Below are positions 2,933 through 37,534 of a DNA stretch of 37,534 bases, in pieces. Source of the stretch: Archaeoglobi archaeon (GTDB lineage Archaea > Halobacteriota > Archaeoglobi > Archaeoglobales > Archaeoglobaceae); NCBI GenBank assembly GCA_004347865.1, contig QNUZ01000003.1, positions 1 through 37,534 of the forward strand, in the 5' to 3' direction. Numbering within the stretch: position 1 is the first letter of the stretch; each line of letters opens with the position of its first letter. The notes below the pieces were generated by a model that saw only the letters and a program-made list of their open reading frames with translations, did not search any database and was not told where the DNA came from. Both the position numbers and the translations under genes were made by a program.

Positions 2933-3017
2933 GTAGAGTTCCGCGAGTATTAAAAACTTATTGAGATCACAACCGAAAGTCTCGCCCTCTAGTTCGGGGA
3001 GAGTTCAGGTAGATGGG

Positions 3018-11901: not shown

Positions 11902-11958
11902 CAAAAAAGAATCTATCGGGGCTATAAAGTTTTAACCCAACAATGGCTATTTCTACAA

Positions 11959-11996
11959 CTGAAAGGTTCACCCCTTTCAGGCGAGGATGAGGTCAG
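11959..11996 (+). mobile_element. IS200/IS605-like right-end hairpin relic (element A)
   Basis: A perfect inverted repeat (CTGAAAGG, six-base loop, CCTTTCAG) is followed by GCGAGGATGAGGTCAG. The pattern of hairpin, then a G-rich stretch ending in GAGGTCAG, resembles the right ends of IS200/IS605 and IS1341-type elements as I remember them. A related copy lies at 14503-14553. No transposase gene is next to it. It lies between the divergent acyP and polB promoters. Confidence 0.5.
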
Positions 11997-12020
11997 CGAA
12001 ATGCCACGAAATGTGAGTTA

Positions 12021-12031
12021 ACTTTAAATCT
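12021..12031 (+). promoter_or_regulatory. TATA box of polB
   Basis: ACTTTAAATCT is centred about 26 bases before the GTG start at 12052, predicting a leaderless polB mRNA. Confidence 0.5.
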
Positions 12032-12051
12032 CCCTTTTCGGTAATTGATTT

Positions 12052-14394
12052 GTGGTAGAAGGTTGGCTTCTCGATGCTGAATACGTGACGATCGACGATA
12101 GGGCGGTTCTTAGGTTGTGGTGTAAGGACCGGGACGTTTTTGTAGCTTACGATAAGAGCTTCAGACCTTACTTTTATGTTTTGAATGTTGATGAAGAAGT
12201 TATTGGAAGAGCAATGATAAACACGAAAAAGGAAGTCATAACTCCCGAGTCCTATGAAAAGGTGCAGGTTAAATTCTTTGGAAAGACAATACCTGCATTT
12301 ATAGTTTACGCAAAACATCCCCAGCACGTTCCAAAGCTTAGAGAGTTCTTCTCTCAATTTGGGGATGTTAGAGAAGCGGACATTCCGTTTGCGTACCGTT
12401 ATCTGATTGACAGAGATCTTGCATGCCTCGATGGAATAAGGATCGAGGGGAAGGAGATCGAGGGCAAGCTCAGAAGCTATGAGATTGAAAAAGTTGAGAG
12501 AGTTAGTCGAGAAATCCCTGATCTAAGGATTTTGGCTTTTGACTGCGAAATGCTGTCAACTTTTGGTATGCCGGATCCTGAGAAGGATCCTATCGTAGTA
12601 ATCTCCGTTAAATGGAACGATGAAAAGGAAGAAGTACTTCAGGGAAGCGAGAGGGCAATAATTCAGGAATTTGTCCGCCTGATAAAGGAAGTCGACCCCG
12701 ATGTAATAGTAGGATATAATCAGGACGCATTTGACTGGCCCTATATAAGAAAAAGGGCCGAAAAGCTGAAGATCCCGCTTAATATCGGCAGAGATGGTTC
12801 ATCGATTACGTTCAAGGGTGGCAGACCAAAGATTGCAGGAAGACTCAACGTTGATCTCTACGACATAGCCATGAGGATCACGGAAGTGAAGATCAAGAAA
12901 CTTGAAAACATAGCAGAGTTCTTGGGTGCAAAGGTTGACATTGAGGACATTGAAGCGAAAGACGTAAGCAAATACTGGGAAAAGGATAGAGAGAAGGTGT
13001 TTGCACACGCAAGAAGGGATGTTATTCACACCTTCATGATCGCAAAAGAGCTTCTGCCCATGCACTATGAACTTGCAAGGCTGATCAGACTTCCTCTAGA
13101 CGACGTTTCGAGAATGGGGAGAGGAAGACAGGTTGACTGGCTGCTTCTGAGCGAGGCGAGGAAGCTGGGAGAAATAGCCCCAAATGCAGGAGAAGCCCCA
13201 ATGGAAAGCTATGAGGGAGCCTTCGTTATAGAGCCCGAAAGGGGTTTGCACGAAAACGTCGCGGAGCTGGATTTTGCCAGTATGTACCCCTCGATTATGA
13301 TCGCGTATAACGTTAGTCCCGACACATTGGCAAGTGATGGTGAGTGTTTTATCGCTCCTGAGGTCGGTTATAAGTTCAGAAAGTGTCCTGATGGATTCTT
13401 TAGGAGAATTCTCAAAATGCTGATAGAGAAAAGGAGGGAGATAAAATCTGAGATGAAGAAGATCAGCGAGGACGATCCGAGATACAGATTGCTTGACATA
13501 AAGCAGCAGACTCTTAAGATCCTTACTAATTCGTTTTATGGTTATATGGGTTGGGCAGGTGCCAGATGGTACTGCAGGGAATGTGCAGAGGCCACCACAG
13601 CATGGGGAAGGCATTTTATAAAGACTTCAGCCAAGATAGCGCAAGATCTGGGTTTTAGAGTTCTTTACGGAGATACAGACAGCATATTTGTTTTAAAACC
13701 AGGATTGGGGTTGAATGAATTGGAATCGGAGGTTGAAAAGCTGATATCGGAGATATCAAAGCAGCTCCCCGTACAGATTGAACTTGATGAGCTATTTAAG
13801 ACGATCTTCTTTGTTGAGAAGAAAAGGTACGCGGGTATAACGGCCGATGGTAGGGTAATCGTTCGCGGGCTTGAGGTCAGGCGTGGCGATTGGTGTGAGC
13901 TCGCGAAGAACGCCCAGAAACTGGTAATCGAGATAATTCTAAAGGAGAGGGATCCGGAGAAGGCACTGAATTACATCAGGGAAGTCATTAACTCGATTAG
14001 AGAGGGAAAGGTGAAGCTAGAAGACCTTGTGATCTACAAGGGATTAACAAAGAAACCCTCGAAATACGAAGCTATGCAGGCTCACGTCAAGGCAGCAAAA
14101 AAAGCTGAGGAAGTCGGCATCTTTTATCCGGTCGGCTCTAAGATTGGATTTGTGGTCATAAAAGGTTCTGGAAACATAGGGGATCGGGCGTATCCCGTGG
14201 ATATGATCGAGCATTTTGACGGTGAGAATCTTAGAATCAGGGTGAAAGGGGGCGTGGATATGAAGAAGATTGATAAAGACTATTATATAGATCATCAGAT
14301 AATCCCAGCAGTTCTTAGAATTTTAGAAAGATTCGGTTACTCTGAGGCTAGAATAAAGGGTTCATCCCAGACGAGCCTCGAGTCTTTCTTTTGA
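12052..14394 (+). CDS. polB: DNA polymerase family B (PolB)
   Basis: This is an archaeal replicative/repair DNA polymerase B of 780 aa with 3'-5' proofreading. Exo I is FDCEM (D164, E166), Exo II is in VGYNQDAFDW, and Exo III is in HARRDVIHTF. Polymerase motif A is DFASMYPS, motif B KILTNSFYGYMG, motif C YGDTDSIF, and a KKRYAG motif follows. The protein ends in QTSLESFF, a textbook PCNA-binding PIP box (Qxx-hydrophobic-xxFF). It starts with GTG, placed right for a leaderless mRNA. No intein is present. It lies between two same-direction IS200/IS605-like end relics. The ORFs on the other strand are shadows. Confidence 0.97.
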   Translation: MVEGWLLDAEYVTIDDRAVLRLWCKDRDVFVAYDKSFRPYFYVLNVDEEVIGRAMINTKKEVITPESYEKVQVKFFGKTIPAFIVYAKHPQHVPKLREFFSQFGDVREADIPFAYRYLIDRDLACLDGIRIEGKEIEGKLRSYEIEKVERVSREIPDLRILAFDCEMLSTFGMPDPEKDPIVVISVKWNDEKEEVLQGSERAIIQEFVRLIKEVDPDVIVGYNQDAFDWPYIRKRAEKLKIPLNIGRDGSSITFKGGRPKIAGRLNVDLYDIAMRITEVKIKKLENIAEFLGAKVDIEDIEAKDVSKYWEKDREKVFAHARRDVIHTFMIAKELLPMHYELARLIRLPLDDVSRMGRGRQVDWLLLSEARKLGEIAPNAGEAPMESYEGAFVIEPERGLHENVAELDFASMYPSIMIAYNVSPDTLASDGECFIAPEVGYKFRKCPDGFFRRILKMLIEKRREIKSEMKKISEDDPRYRLLDIKQQTLKILTNSFYGYMGWAGARWYCRECAEATTAWGRHFIKTSAKIAQDLGFRVLYGDTDSIFVLKPGLGLNELESEVEKLISEISKQLPVQIELDELFKTIFFVEKKRYAGITADGRVIVRGLEVRRGDWCELAKNAQKLVIEIILKERDPEKALNYIREVINSIREGKVKLEDLVIYKGLTKKPSKYEAMQAHVKAAKKAEEVGIFYPVGSKIGFVVIKGSGNIGDRAYPVDMIEHFDGENLRIRVKGGVDMKKIDKDYYIDHQIIPAVLRILERFGYSEARIKGSSQTSLESFF

Positions 14395-14468
14395 ATCCTT
14401 ATAGAACAATTTCTGAAACTGCTTCCGTTCAGCGTGGGTTGGGGAGCTTAGCTTTTGAACCGACAGAT

Positions 14469-14490
14469 AAGAGAAGGAGTAGAATCTCTT
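14469..14490. repeat. Hairpin upstream of element B
   Basis: AAGAGA and TCTCTT pair across a ten-base loop, just before the larger hairpin of element B. Together they give two consecutive stem-loops in the 14395-14600 gap between polB and the receiver gene, which otherwise shows no gene. Confidence 0.4.
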
Positions 14491-14502
14491 CTGATGCCGA
14501 AA

Positions 14503-14553
14503 GTCCTGCCTTTAAAGGGATTAAATCCCTCTTCAGGACGGGTAGGAGGTCAG
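14503..14553 (+). mobile_element. IS200/IS605-like right-end hairpin relic (element B)
   Basis: GTCCTG and CAGGAC pair as an outer stem around an inner GGGA/TCCC hairpin; the block ends in ACGGGTAGGAGGTCAG. Compared with element A, CAGG, a G-rich stretch and the final GAGGTCAG/GGAGGTCAG are shared in the same order and direction. This is the expected form of a TnpB-type transposon right end, where the omega-RNA scaffold ends and guide begins. There is no open tnpB frame upstream, so it is a solo end. Confidence 0.55.
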
Positions 14554-16179: not shown

Positions 16180-17394
16180 CTAAGCCTTTTTCCCCTTTCC
16201 CCAGTATTCCTTTATTTTTTCAATCACGGGCAATTTCTCGCCGCTTAGGAATCTAACACAAGCGCCTCCGGCGATTGAAACATGGCTGACTTTGTCGCCA
16301 AGCCCGAACATGTTAACCGCGGAAGCGCTGTGCCCTCCGCCGATAATCGAATACTTGGCCTTTGAAACAGCTTTTAGCACTTCATATGTGCCGAGTGAGA
16401 ACTTTGAATCCTCGTATACTCCAGCGGTGCCGTTGACGACCACCGTGTCGAACTCTGGGATCATGCTCGAGAAAAGGTTCATAGTTTCGACTCCAATGTC
16501 CTTGATTATTCCCTTTCCATTGAATTTTTCGATTGAGACGTCCTCTCGAACCCCGCCTACGTCGACACCGAAATCAACTGGGAGAATGATCTTATCTCTG
16601 TGCTTTTCTAGGATTTTCTTGGCATCTTCATCTTTAACGTTCTCCTTGTTATCTTCCACGATCCTTTTGTTATCCTCTCCAATATCCTTGCCGCTTAGAA
16701 GTAGGAAGTAGTTCGCGATTACACCTGAAAGGAAAACCTTCTCAGCAATTCCGTTCTCAAGAACGTTTTTCATGACCTTTATTGGGTCCTTTATCTTTGC
16801 GCCTCCCAACACAAAGGCTATCCTATCCCCCTTTTTGAGGCCTCTGCTAAGAGCATTTATCTCCTTCTCAGCTACCCTGCCAATAAAGGTTGGTAGAACT
16901 GGAATAAAACCTACTAGGGATGCATGGCTCCTGTGGAATGCAGAAAATGCATCATTAACGAAGGCATCGAAGTGATCCTTCAGTTTTCTTACCATCAAGC
17001 AATTTGCGTGCTCCTCGGCACTTCTGTCCAGCTGCTCTTCGGAGTAGAACCTTACGTTTTCCAGAAGCACGATTTCGCCCGGTTTCATATTCTTTATTCT
17101 TTCAAGAACCCTCCTGCTGAATATTTCATCGATATATTCGACCTCTTTGCCAACTATTTTTGCCAGTACCTTTGCGTGCTCCTCTAAGGTCGTGAAGTCC
17201 CTTCTCCCTGGTCTGCTCTGATGAGCTAGGATAACAAGTTCTCGATCTTCAAGTTCTCGGATTGTTGGAAGATGACTTTCGAATCTTGTGGTATCCAGAA
17301 TTGTCGAATTTACGATCGGAGCATTTATGTCCAGCCTGAGAAGTATAGATTTTTGCTTCGCCTCTATATCGTCAAGTGTTGGAAGTCCATCCAT
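16180..17394 (-). CDS. pgk: Phosphoglycerate kinase
   Basis: PGK interconverts 1,3-bisphosphoglycerate plus ADP with 3-phosphoglycerate plus ATP, in glycolysis and gluconeogenesis. The 404-aa protein has LLRLDINAPI near the N-terminus and ILAHQSRPGRRD. GEIVLLENVRF, DAFVNDAFSAFHRSHAS and the C-terminal SIIGGGHSASAVNMFG nucleotide loop all agree with archaeal PGKs. It converges closely with dnaG (seven bases apart) and diverges from argJ, with 58 bases between the starts. Its TATA box (CCTTTTAAAAC on its strand) overlaps the argJ promoter. Confidence 0.97.
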   Translation of the reverse strand: MDGLPTLDDIEAKQKSILLRLDINAPIVNSTILDTTRFESHLPTIRELEDRELVILAHQSRPGRRDFTTLEEHAKVLAKIVGKEVEYIDEIFSRRVLERIKNMKPGEIVLLENVRFYSEEQLDRSAEEHANCLMVRKLKDHFDAFVNDAFSAFHRSHASLVGFIPVLPTFIGRVAEKEINALSRGLKKGDRIAFVLGGAKIKDPIKVMKNVLENGIAEKVFLSGVIANYFLLLSGKDIGEDNKRIVEDNKENVKDEDAKKILEKHRDKIILPVDFGVDVGGVREDVSIEKFNGKGIIKDIGVETMNLFSSMIPEFDTVVVNGTAGVYEDSKFSLGTYEVLKAVSKAKYSIIGGGHSASAVNMFGLGDKVSHVSIAGGACVRFLSGEKLPVIEKIKEYWGKGKKA

Positions 17395-25180: not shown

Positions 25181-25192
25181 GTTTTTATAACT
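25181..25192 (+). promoter_or_regulatory. TATA box of the pur-car-larB operon
   Basis: GTTTTTATAACT lies about 23 bases before the purE ATG at 25210 and 35 before the alternative ATG at 25222. Confidence 0.5.
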
Positions 25193-25209
25193 GAAAACTC
25201 CGCCGTTTT

Positions 25210-25698
25210 ATGGCGGAGTCTATGAAAGCGGTAATCCTTATGGGCTCAAAAGCTGATTTAGAGTACGGAAAGGAGATAGCAGAGAAGCTAAAGCTTTTTG
25301 GAATCGAAAGCGAGCTGAGGGTGGCTTCTGCTCACAAAACGCCTGAATATGTACTGGAAATTATTAGGGGCTATGAGAAGGAAGATGTGATCTTCGTTAC
25401 TATAGCCGGCAGAAGCAATGCATTAAGCGGTTTTGTAGATGCGAACACGAGCAAGCCTGTTATAGCTTCCCCTCCCTACAGCGAAAAGTTCGCAGGGGCG
25501 GACATATTTTCAAGCATTAGGATGCCCTCGGGAGTTGCACCTATGCTTGTTCTCGAAGCCGAGAATACAGCTTTGGCTGTCGCAAAGATCTTCGCCATTA
25601 AGAGCGAAAATGTCAGATTAGCGGTTGAGGAGTATCAGAAGAAAAAGAAGGAGGAAATAGTAAAGGCCGACAGGGAGGTGACTCATGGGAAGCGTTAA
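25210..25698 (+). CDS. purE: AIR carboxylase, class II PurE
   Basis: PurE adds carbon to aminoimidazole ribonucleotide in purine synthesis. The 162-aa protein has MGSKADL and SAHKTP, then AGRSNALSGFVDANT and SPPYSEKFAGADIFSSIRMPSG. This pattern follows class II PurE (the animal-type enzyme that uses CO2 directly) rather than the bacterial class I mutase that needs PurK. No purK is present in the window, which fits. Its 3' end overlaps purC by 14 bases. It heads the operon; MAES before MKAVILMG may or may not be translated. Confidence 0.9.
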   Translation: MAESMKAVILMGSKADLEYGKEIAEKLKLFGIESELRVASAHKTPEYVLEIIRGYEKEDVIFVTIAGRSNALSGFVDANTSKPVIASPPYSEKFAGADIFSSIRMPSGVAPMLVLEAENTALAVAKIFAIKSENVRLAVEEYQKKKKEEIVKADREVTHGKR

Positions 25699-34564: not shown

Positions 34565-35732
34565 AAGGCTTGAAGGAAAGAAGATAGTTTTGGGAGTTAC
34601 GGGCAGCATAGCCGCAGTGGAGTGTGTTAAGCTTGCAAGGGAGCTTGCAAGGAGAGGTGCGGAAGTTTTTGCAGTGATGAGCGAAGCAGCGCAGAAAATA
34701 ATCCATCCCTACGCTCTCGAATTCGCAACGGGGAACAGGGTTGTTACGGAGATTACAGGAATGATCGAGCACGTAAATTACCTTGGAAAGGATGGATTTG
34801 CGGATCTGTACCTGATAGCTCCCGCCACCGCGAACACGATTTCAAAAATTGCAAACGGAATCGATGATACACCAGTTACAACCTTTGCCACAGCTGCTCT
34901 TGGATCTGGAAAACCTATGCTGATAGCCCCAGCAATGCACGCCGCGATGATCGAAAACAAAGCGGTCAAGGAAAACATCGAGAAGCTTAAGAAAATGGGC
35001 GTGGAGTTTATAGAGCCAAAATTCGCTGAGGAAAAGGCAAAATTCCCGGACATCGAGAAGATCTGCCTGCACGTAGAGAGAAAGCTCTATTCAAAGGAAT
35101 TTTTGGGAAAGAAGGTTCTTGTCACCGCTGGGCCCACATACGAGCAAATAGATCCCGTCCGTTTCATAAGCAACAGGAGTTCGGGGCTTATGGGAAAAGA
35201 AATAGCCCTGGAACTCTGGCGGAGGGGGGCCGAAGTTGTGCTTGTGAGTTCCAAGGACTTCGGAATCGATCTGCCTAACTTCAGGGAAGTTCATGTCTGG
35301 TCTGTTAGGGACATGCTGAACGCTGTGCTTGAAGAGATCAAAGGATGTGACCTTTTCGTCTCTTCTGCGGCTCCTGCTGACTTCGAGGTTGAAATGCGGG
35401 ATAAGAAGATTAAAACTGCTCCCGAACTCGTTCTTAAACTCAAAGAGGCTCCAAAGATTATAAAGGAGGTCAGAAGGGTTTACGGCGGGCATATCGTTGG
35501 TTTTAAGGCGGAAACAGGACTGAGTGATGAAGAACTGGCTAAAATTGCGAAGGAAAGACTTGAGGCAGATAAGCTTGCGATGGTCGTTGCGAATGATGTC
35601 CTCGAGAGGGGCATGGGAACCGAGGAAACGAGGGTTGTCGTGGTGACAGCCAGAAGGACCCAGTGGCTTGAGGGCAGAAAAAGCTTGGTGGCTCAGAAAA
35701 TAGTGGAGATCTATGTTGAAGACCTCCTATGA
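34554..35732 (+). CDS. coaBC: Bifunctional phosphopantothenoylcysteine synthetase/decarboxylase
   Basis: CoaBC joins cysteine to phosphopantothenate and decarboxylates the product to phosphopantetheine, in CoA synthesis. The N-terminal flavin decarboxylase (CoaC) part has LGVTGSIAAVE, IAPATANTISKIANG and the PAMH motif, the archaeal variant of PxMN. The C-terminal CoaB part starts about residue 190 with VTAGPTYEQIDPVRFISNRSSGLMG. I choose GTG at 34554, which overlaps the polyferredoxin end and follows AAGGGGA; the ORF-track start is 33 bases earlier. Its own stop overlaps the pantoate kinase start, which belongs to the same pathway. Confidence 0.94.
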   Translation: MESRRLEGKKIVLGVTGSIAAVECVKLARELARRGAEVFAVMSEAAQKIIHPYALEFATGNRVVTEITGMIEHVNYLGKDGFADLYLIAPATANTISKIANGIDDTPVTTFATAALGSGKPMLIAPAMHAAMIENKAVKENIEKLKKMGVEFIEPKFAEEKAKFPDIEKICLHVERKLYSKEFLGKKVLVTAGPTYEQIDPVRFISNRSSGLMGKEIALELWRRGAEVVLVSSKDFGIDLPNFREVHVWSVRDMLNAVLEEIKGCDLFVSSAAPADFEVEMRDKKIKTAPELVLKLKEAPKIIKEVRRVYGGHIVGFKAETGLSDEELAKIAKERLEADKLAMVVANDVLERGMGTEETRVVVVTARRTQWLEGRKSLVAQKIVEIYVEDLL

Positions 35733-37283: not shown

Positions 37284-37340
37284 TTATAAAAATGGGTGCC
37301 CAGAAAACTCGGAGCTTTAGCTCTGATGAACGGGCAAAGC
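37284..37340 (+). mobile_element. IS200/IS605-like hairpin element (E)
   Basis: The second copy of element D: TTATAAAAATGGGTGCCCAG is identical, then a CGGAGC-TTTA-GCTCTG hairpin and GATGAACGGGCAA. It begins 15 bases after the nitrilase stop and is followed by a tnpB fragment in the same direction. Confidence 0.55.
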
Positions 37341-37344
37341 TTAA

Positions 37345-37534
37345 ATACTGCTTTCCGTAATTCTACATAGATGCAGGCATGTTGCCCAAATAGGTGTAGG
37401 CAGAATCTACAAATGCCCGAAGTGTGGGATGGAATACGATAGGGATCTAAACGCGTGCATAAACATAGCCCGCAGGTTAATGAGCTCTGCGGGATGGGGG
37501 AGCTGTGAGCCCCCCGAACCGGCAGATGAGGGGA
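37345..37534 (+). pseudogene. tnpB: TnpB 3' fragment (IS200/IS605), runs off window
   Basis: In the frame that starts after TAA at 37342-37344, the last part reads GVGRIYKCPKCGMEYDRDLN and then ACINIARRLMSS. This is the zinc ribbon (CPKCG) and the third RuvC motif (DRDLNA with its catalytic Asp) of the TnpB RNA-guided nuclease. The first Cys pair of the ribbon is incomplete (HRCRHV), and the rest of TnpB is missing; element E lies where the gene body should be. The 3' part normally also encodes the omega-RNA scaffold. The frame is open to the window edge, so the true end and right terminus cannot be seen. Confidence 0.85.

Follow-up and report, generated by a model that had tools for sequence, protein, structure and literature searches.

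The two short elements that flank the family B DNA polymerase gene (polB) of an Archaeoglobaceae genome, here called A and B, are almost certainly relics of single-strand transposons of the IS200/IS605 type: A is a terminal-only derivative, and B is an eroded 3' end that bears remains of tnpB. The window, meaning the whole stretch of DNA analysed, is a single 37.5-kb contig (G000:C144) of an Archaeoglobaceae MAG (G000; 1.51 Mb in 220 contigs, 95% complete). The evidence comprises a family of copies with sharp boundaries, a parent element with matching ends, guides that pair with cleavage sites, and empty sites in relatives. A first-pass annotation had noticed look-alike hairpin motifs on both sides of polB, running in the same direction, and had proposed an origin from tnpB-type IS200/IS605 elements. 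The motifs are where it placed them, on the plus strand, and the proposed origin is borne out: the same ends stand 3' of tnpB genes, and a complete parent with tnpA and tnpB exists within the family. The extents first given (11959–11996 and 14503–14553) are corrected to 11957–11996 for A and 14429–14553 for B. Both had been read as right ends. This description fits B, which carries a tnpB tail, but not A, in which a left boundary and left guide are fused to a right end.

The polB locus is best understood by comparison with relatives. In the closest of these (G053, locus L043) polB is 87% identical and keeps both neighbours, which are a minus-strand gene resembling acylphosphatase and a plus-strand response-regulator gene (putative names, read off translations), without A or B. 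The first-pass annotation had asked whether polB in relatives has the same flanks: the first of two search models, R1, found neither element at 29 relative polB loci. Because relatives have polB without either element, and the closest of them the same neighbours, polB is not cargo. Named relatives of the polB protein come exclusively from uncultured Archaeoglobales MAGs. The gap on the A side of polB measures 150 nt here versus 108 nt in L043 (+42), and that on the B side 213 nt versus 87 nt (+126). These differences match the 40 nt of A and the 125 nt of B and thus indicate two separate insertions; the intergenic sequence around A has diverged too far from that of relatives for an empty site exact to the base. 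A promoter-like box upstream of polB, GTTAACTTTAAATCT, is conserved in relatives, and A ends about 16 nt upstream of it.

Table 1. Features of the window, with the evidence for each.
Feature	Position	Strand	Evidence
Third copy in the window: TCAC (2967–2970) followed by a 38-nt terminal-only element	2967–3008	+	R2, E=1.3e-6 (match 2962–3008)
A, left cleavage/target site CTAC (family consensus TTAC)	11953–11956	+	Sharp left edge over 39 members
A, terminal-only IS200/IS605 mini-element, 40 nt, left end fused to right end	11957–11996	+	R2; L043 gap
A, left guide AAAG, 5' of hairpin	11962–11965	+	AAAG/AAAA in nearly all terminal-only copies; IS608 GL (PMC5934647)
polB (family B DNA polymerase), host gene, not cargo	12052–14394	+	53 of 55 family genomes carry polB
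B, decayed 3' coding end of X-type tnpB	14429–14497	+	Alignment to L107 tnpB tail
B, right end: enlarged-loop hairpin, then GGGTAGGAGGTCAG, cleavage-type TCAG (14550–14553)	14498–14553	+	R2; L043 gap
X-type tnpB element: TTATAA left end joined directly to zinc-ribbon 3' end	37284–37534	+	PF07282; left end in >30 copies

A and B are both on the plus strand, form hairpins and have a common end, ...GAGGTCAG. The short end motif GGAGGTCAG, allowing one mismatch, is by itself unenriched in the window (9 observed versus 7.4 expected), so the case has to be made from the genome. Genome-wide, the pattern CAGG-N(2-9)-GAGGTCAG has 15 matches versus two for a reversed control pattern; the matches at L032, L040 and L041 were discarded, as the hairpin unit is missing or the position falls inside genes. 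Copies were also sought with R2, a covariance model built from 21 other copies with A and B left out. Copy counts vary with model and threshold: R2 gives 41 in this genome, 55 in the congener G046 and none in G053, and R1 gives 47, 78 and none for the same three. Beyond these, R1 counts 11 and 16 in two genomes of another genus and one to three in a few more; 46 of the 55 family members, G053 among them, have no R1 copies. Full-length copies are under-counted, since the genome is fragmented and its contigs tend to break inside repeats. Such a patchy distribution is what a mobile family gives. Preservation is much better in many other copies (GCCTCGCCCTTCAGGGCGGGGAGGAGGTCAG) than in A or B. With about 45 copies in the genome, some of them beside tnpB, the chance resemblance that the first-pass annotation had allowed for is not supported. 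The third copy in the window, overlooked in the first-pass annotation, scores better than A and sits between two minus-strand genes. A left-end-like motif with a clean hairpin at a gene start (25186–25219, TTATAACTGAAAACTCCGCCGTTTTATGGCGGAG; R2 E=0.013) is a possible further relic. Candidates at 16714–16745 (E=0.04) and 35428–35473 (E=0.085) were rejected as chance matches in coding regions.

The copies fall into distinct kinds with well-defined boundaries. The zinc ribbon of tnpB (PF07282) is found at 26 places in the genome. Right ends lie directly 3' of tnpB at L003, L007, L008, L009 and L125, and the family end holds the same position in relatives. These tnpB-attached ends read GGAAC-CCTCGCCC-loop-GGGCGGGG-AGGAGGTCAG (L003, L007, L008, L009 and others). 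Terminal-only, or solo, units have the order left cleavage site (usually TTAC), left guide AAAG, one hairpin and right end GGAGGTCAG. Across 39 solo and left-end copies, upstream columns carry about 0.1 bit of information each, and the value rises to 0.8–1.7 bits from the cleavage site onward. From the sharp edge TTTAC the consensus continues with MACYGAAAGCC and the hairpin; solo copies then have AGGAGGTCAG. The left site in the 38 copies checked is TTAC in 24, CTAC in five and TTAT in four; TTAC at most 14 nt from the guide, found in 24 of the 38, has a chance expectation of 3%. Left ends of tnpA elements, which were classified by motif, have a hairpin followed by GGGGATG..., not by GGAGGTCAG. 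The sole piece of Y1 TnpA in this genome, a fragment on contig C114, lies directly 3' of such a left end.

The assembly of this MAG contains tnpA and tnpB only in pieces, and the parent element is seen most fully in relatives. At L233 (G046, C10) the order is TTAC-CACCTGAAAG-hairpin, tnpA, a frame-broken tnpB and GGAAC-hairpin-GGAGGTCAG. In L238 (G015) both tnpA (139 aa) and tnpB (428 aa) are intact, and the pair is bounded by TTAC and TCAA. The Y1 HUH TnpA domain (PF01797) is detected in the C114 fragment, G046 and G015, in each case inside elements with these ends. The left and right hairpins of the parent are near identical and have the same orientation, so that they are direct repeats, and the product of a deletion between them is precisely the solo unit. 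Each of five left-end variants (TTACAACT, TTACAACC, TTACCACCT, TTACCTTACTCT and TTACAACA) is shared between tnpA-type left ends and solo units, which points to repeated origin from different parents. Matches antisense to tnpB or 5' of it had suggested that solo units are left ends read backwards. This reading was rejected, as the tnpA parent shows the true orientation; the matches are neighbouring copies or elements with inverted tnpB. At L101, L102, L105 and L106 (G015, G017) a GGAAC-hairpin-GGAGGTCAG right end, preceded by a conserved structured stretch, lies upstream of and antisense to four tnpB genes. Here the orientation of tnpB appears reversed with respect to the transposon ends, and the guide RNA would diverge from the gene, an unusual arrangement.

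The guide and cleavage tetranucleotides of the ends can be set beside those of IS608. In IS608, the left cleavage site (CL) TTAC pairs with the left guide (GL) AAAG and the right cleavage site (CR) TCAA with the right guide (GR) GAAT, and both guides are placed 5' of the hairpins they belong to (PMC5934647). In the present family, left ends pair TTAC with left guide AAAG. Right ends show the pair GAAC/TCAG in about 29 members of the class and GAAT/TCAA in four of four, as counted by a rough motif classifier that misbinned one or two solo copies. A further tnpB family, termed X-type, combines TTAT and AAAA at its left end, and TCAC and GAAG at its right end, as read from sequence. In each of the five pairs the fourth base of the guide is complementary to the final base of the cleavage site; guides thus covary with cleavage sites as they do in IS608. 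The terminal-only copies retain AAAG and are without GAAC, as expected from a crossover within the hairpin. Insertion 3' of a fixed short target, without target-site duplication, is seen at two loci. At L188 a unit of 38–39 nt follows TTTAC at the 3' end of a coding sequence through which relatives read straight; at L035 the unit lies between TTAC and CAAG... and is absent from relatives. The corresponding site of A is CTAC. The L188 unit (G000:C141:1878–1925) occupies the last codons of a gene that appears enoyl-CoA hydratase-like by context, and it has replaced the C-terminus of the product, giving an early stop.

Element A belongs to a set of at least 23 terminal-only mini-elements, each about 38–42 nt long. 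Its layout is of the solo kind, CTAC then AACTGAAAGGTTCACCCCTTTCAGGCGAGGATGAGGTCAG, and it terminates in TCAG (11993–11996). The R2 match to it has E=5.6e-6 when the window is searched and E=2.3e-4 for the whole genome. The ancestral stem is mostly broken, with a different 8-bp stem in its place, and the folding z-score (-1.2) is unremarkable. Solo units had also been considered as members of the X-type family; this was rejected, since X elements start at TTATAA and end at AGCTCAC, both sharp boundaries.

In element B, a tnpB gene survives as a decayed 3' end together with its right end. R2 matches B only weakly (E=0.025 in the window), so the assignment relies on the tnpB tail. The alignment of positions 14429–14518 with the 3' end of a tnpB element scores 69, versus a maximum of 31 in 2000 dinucleotide shuffles, and the part upstream of the hairpin aligns to the tnpB tail of L107 with a score of 51 (maximum 25 in 2000 shuffles). 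The folding z-score of B (-1.35) is likewise unremarkable. The terminal AGGAGGTCAG, with its TCAG, belongs to a different family from the X-type tnpB tail, whose own end is TCAC. To judge from its sequence, B looks like a mosaic of two element families, plausibly the product of another recombination between similar hairpins.

These observations suggest the following history. A parent element would have inserted 3' of a TTAC-like site, with near-identical hairpins in the same orientation at its left and right. The core, consisting of tnpA, tnpB and one hairpin, would later have been lost by deletion between the two hairpins, and the remnant would consist of left boundary, left guide, one hairpin and right boundary. 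B is a separate tnpB-bearing insertion, eroded to its 3' end. A was thus probably made by deletion rather than by movement of a mini-element. It could instead have arrived as a ready-made unit, if terminal-only elements are miniature transposons of about 40 nt moved in trans by TnpA in the manner of REP sequences or PATEs. The excess of terminal-only copies (at least 23) over one TnpA fragment in this genome is in keeping with such movement, as is the precise insertion of the units 3' of TTAC. Haloquadratum offers a precedent, in that six of six strain-specific ISHwa23 insertions are the 52-bp form, from which the authors hint at mobility (PMC3119063). In IS608, however, the right guide is needed for recognising the right cleavage site (PMC5934647), and units that kept AAAG but lack GAAC give reason to think re-excision impossible. 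Moreover, their left-end variants recur in full-length left ends, as repeated origin from parents predicts, and their stems decay without compensatory change. Arrival of A by this route is accordingly considered rather unlikely. The general proposition, that single-hairpin elements of about 40 nt are mobilised in trans by TnpA with a left guide only, is somewhat more doubtful still; if true, these units would rank among the smallest mobile units derived from IS200/IS605 elements.

Two further readings would give the elements a role at the locus or a common history with polB. A and B might be host non-coding RNAs, regulatory hairpins or stand-alone omega RNAs acting on polB and its neighbours: hairpins lie near promoters, A close to the conserved GTTAACTTTAAATCT box, and the 3' end of an omega RNA is the right end of tnpB elements. 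The omega RNA scaffold overlaps the 3' part of tnpB. Terminal-only copies share no sequence upstream of TTTAC, and a unit of about 40 nt has no such scaffold. A and B are absent from the same loci in relatives, and the Rfam scan of the window returned two tRNAs only, with no match at A or B, whose folding is in any case unremarkable. No pair of the family stem has changed on both sides, so compensatory change gives no support for a retained RNA function. A host RNA role is therefore very improbable; A and B probably have no present function, and we take them to be scars. The remaining reading treats A and B as the two ends of a single element that once carried polB. It draws on their shared direction and on a spacing of 2.5 kb with polB in between. 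Shared direction has a 1-in-2 chance of arising between independent insertions, and each element has a right end of its own, both pointing the same way; the upstream part of B is a tnpB tail, not a left end. The searched relatives have polB without either element, the closest of them with both neighbours in place, and each gap difference fits a separate insertion. A polB carrier has next to no credibility. The first-pass view of A and B as a pair thus gives way to two independent insertions of different make-up, and its suggestion that polB was once inside or beside mobile DNA fails for 'inside', as relatives have polB without the elements, and is true of 'beside' only in a trivial sense.

The preferred reading, of deletion-derived and eroded relics, has close parallels in known systems. 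The Y1 TnpA, the zinc-ribbon tnpB with a 3' right end and the guide-complementary subterminal hairpins are those of IS200/IS605 elements. The PATEs of Haloquadratum walsbyi derive from IS605-type elements, and their 52-bp terminal-only forms arise via repeat-mediated deletion between near-terminal palindromes (Dyall-Smith et al. 2011, PMC3119063), which in the HqIRS46 and ISHwa23 parents are direct repeats of 19–22 bp (PMC3119063). A and at least 22 other copies share with the core deletions of HqIRS46 and ISHwa23 a non-coding length, termini fused around a single near-terminal palindrome and an IS605-type parent, and the family resembles PATEs also in its target oligonucleotide on the left, lack of target duplication and many copies. 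Unlike PATEs, the units belong to another archaeal class, measure about 38–42 nt rather than 52 and have readable guide and cleavage tetranucleotides, and their core deletion is inferred. The family matches IS608 (ISHp608 of Helicobacter pylori) in CL TTAC, GL AAAG and the order tnpA then tnpB, and the G015 relative also in CR TCAA and GR GAAT (PMC5934647). It differs in that this genome has CR TCAG with GR GAAC, a matched change, and in its near-identical left and right hairpins. REP/REPIN sequences with TnpA-REP (RAYT) are likewise short palindromes outside genes, with a conserved tetranucleotide on the 5' side of the hairpin and a link to Y1 transposases. As described, they carry a GTAG or CGTC tag and a domesticated single-copy transposase of RAYT type; the present units have TTAC, neither of those tags, and an IS parent with tnpA and tnpB, and so fall outside that group.

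The findings add Archaeoglobaceae to haloarchaea as a group in which IS605-type elements leave terminal-only fossils, here in large numbers. Guide and cleavage tetranucleotides can be read directly and covary between subfamilies as the IS608 structure predicts. The combinations GAAC/TCAG, AAAA/TTAT and GAAG/TCAC are natural variants ready for tests of TnpA targeting. Transposon scars can fully account for short motifs next to core genes such as polB, and such motifs should not be mistaken for regulatory RNA.

The X-type family shows features of its own. The element at 37284–37534 runs off the end of the contig, and the assembly breaks at such repeats. Many X-type copies, about 200–300 nt long, consist of a left and a right end with no tnpB between them (L168–L175 and L178, on G000 contigs C199, C7, C24, C210, C1, C2, C137, C5 and C138) and form a second internally deleted set beside the terminal-only elements. 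X-type and solo elements often lie within a few dozen bases of each other (L107, L160, L174, L183, L192, L195 and L013), as though insertion of one kind favoured the other, or as though the two kinds shared the only gaps that tolerate them.
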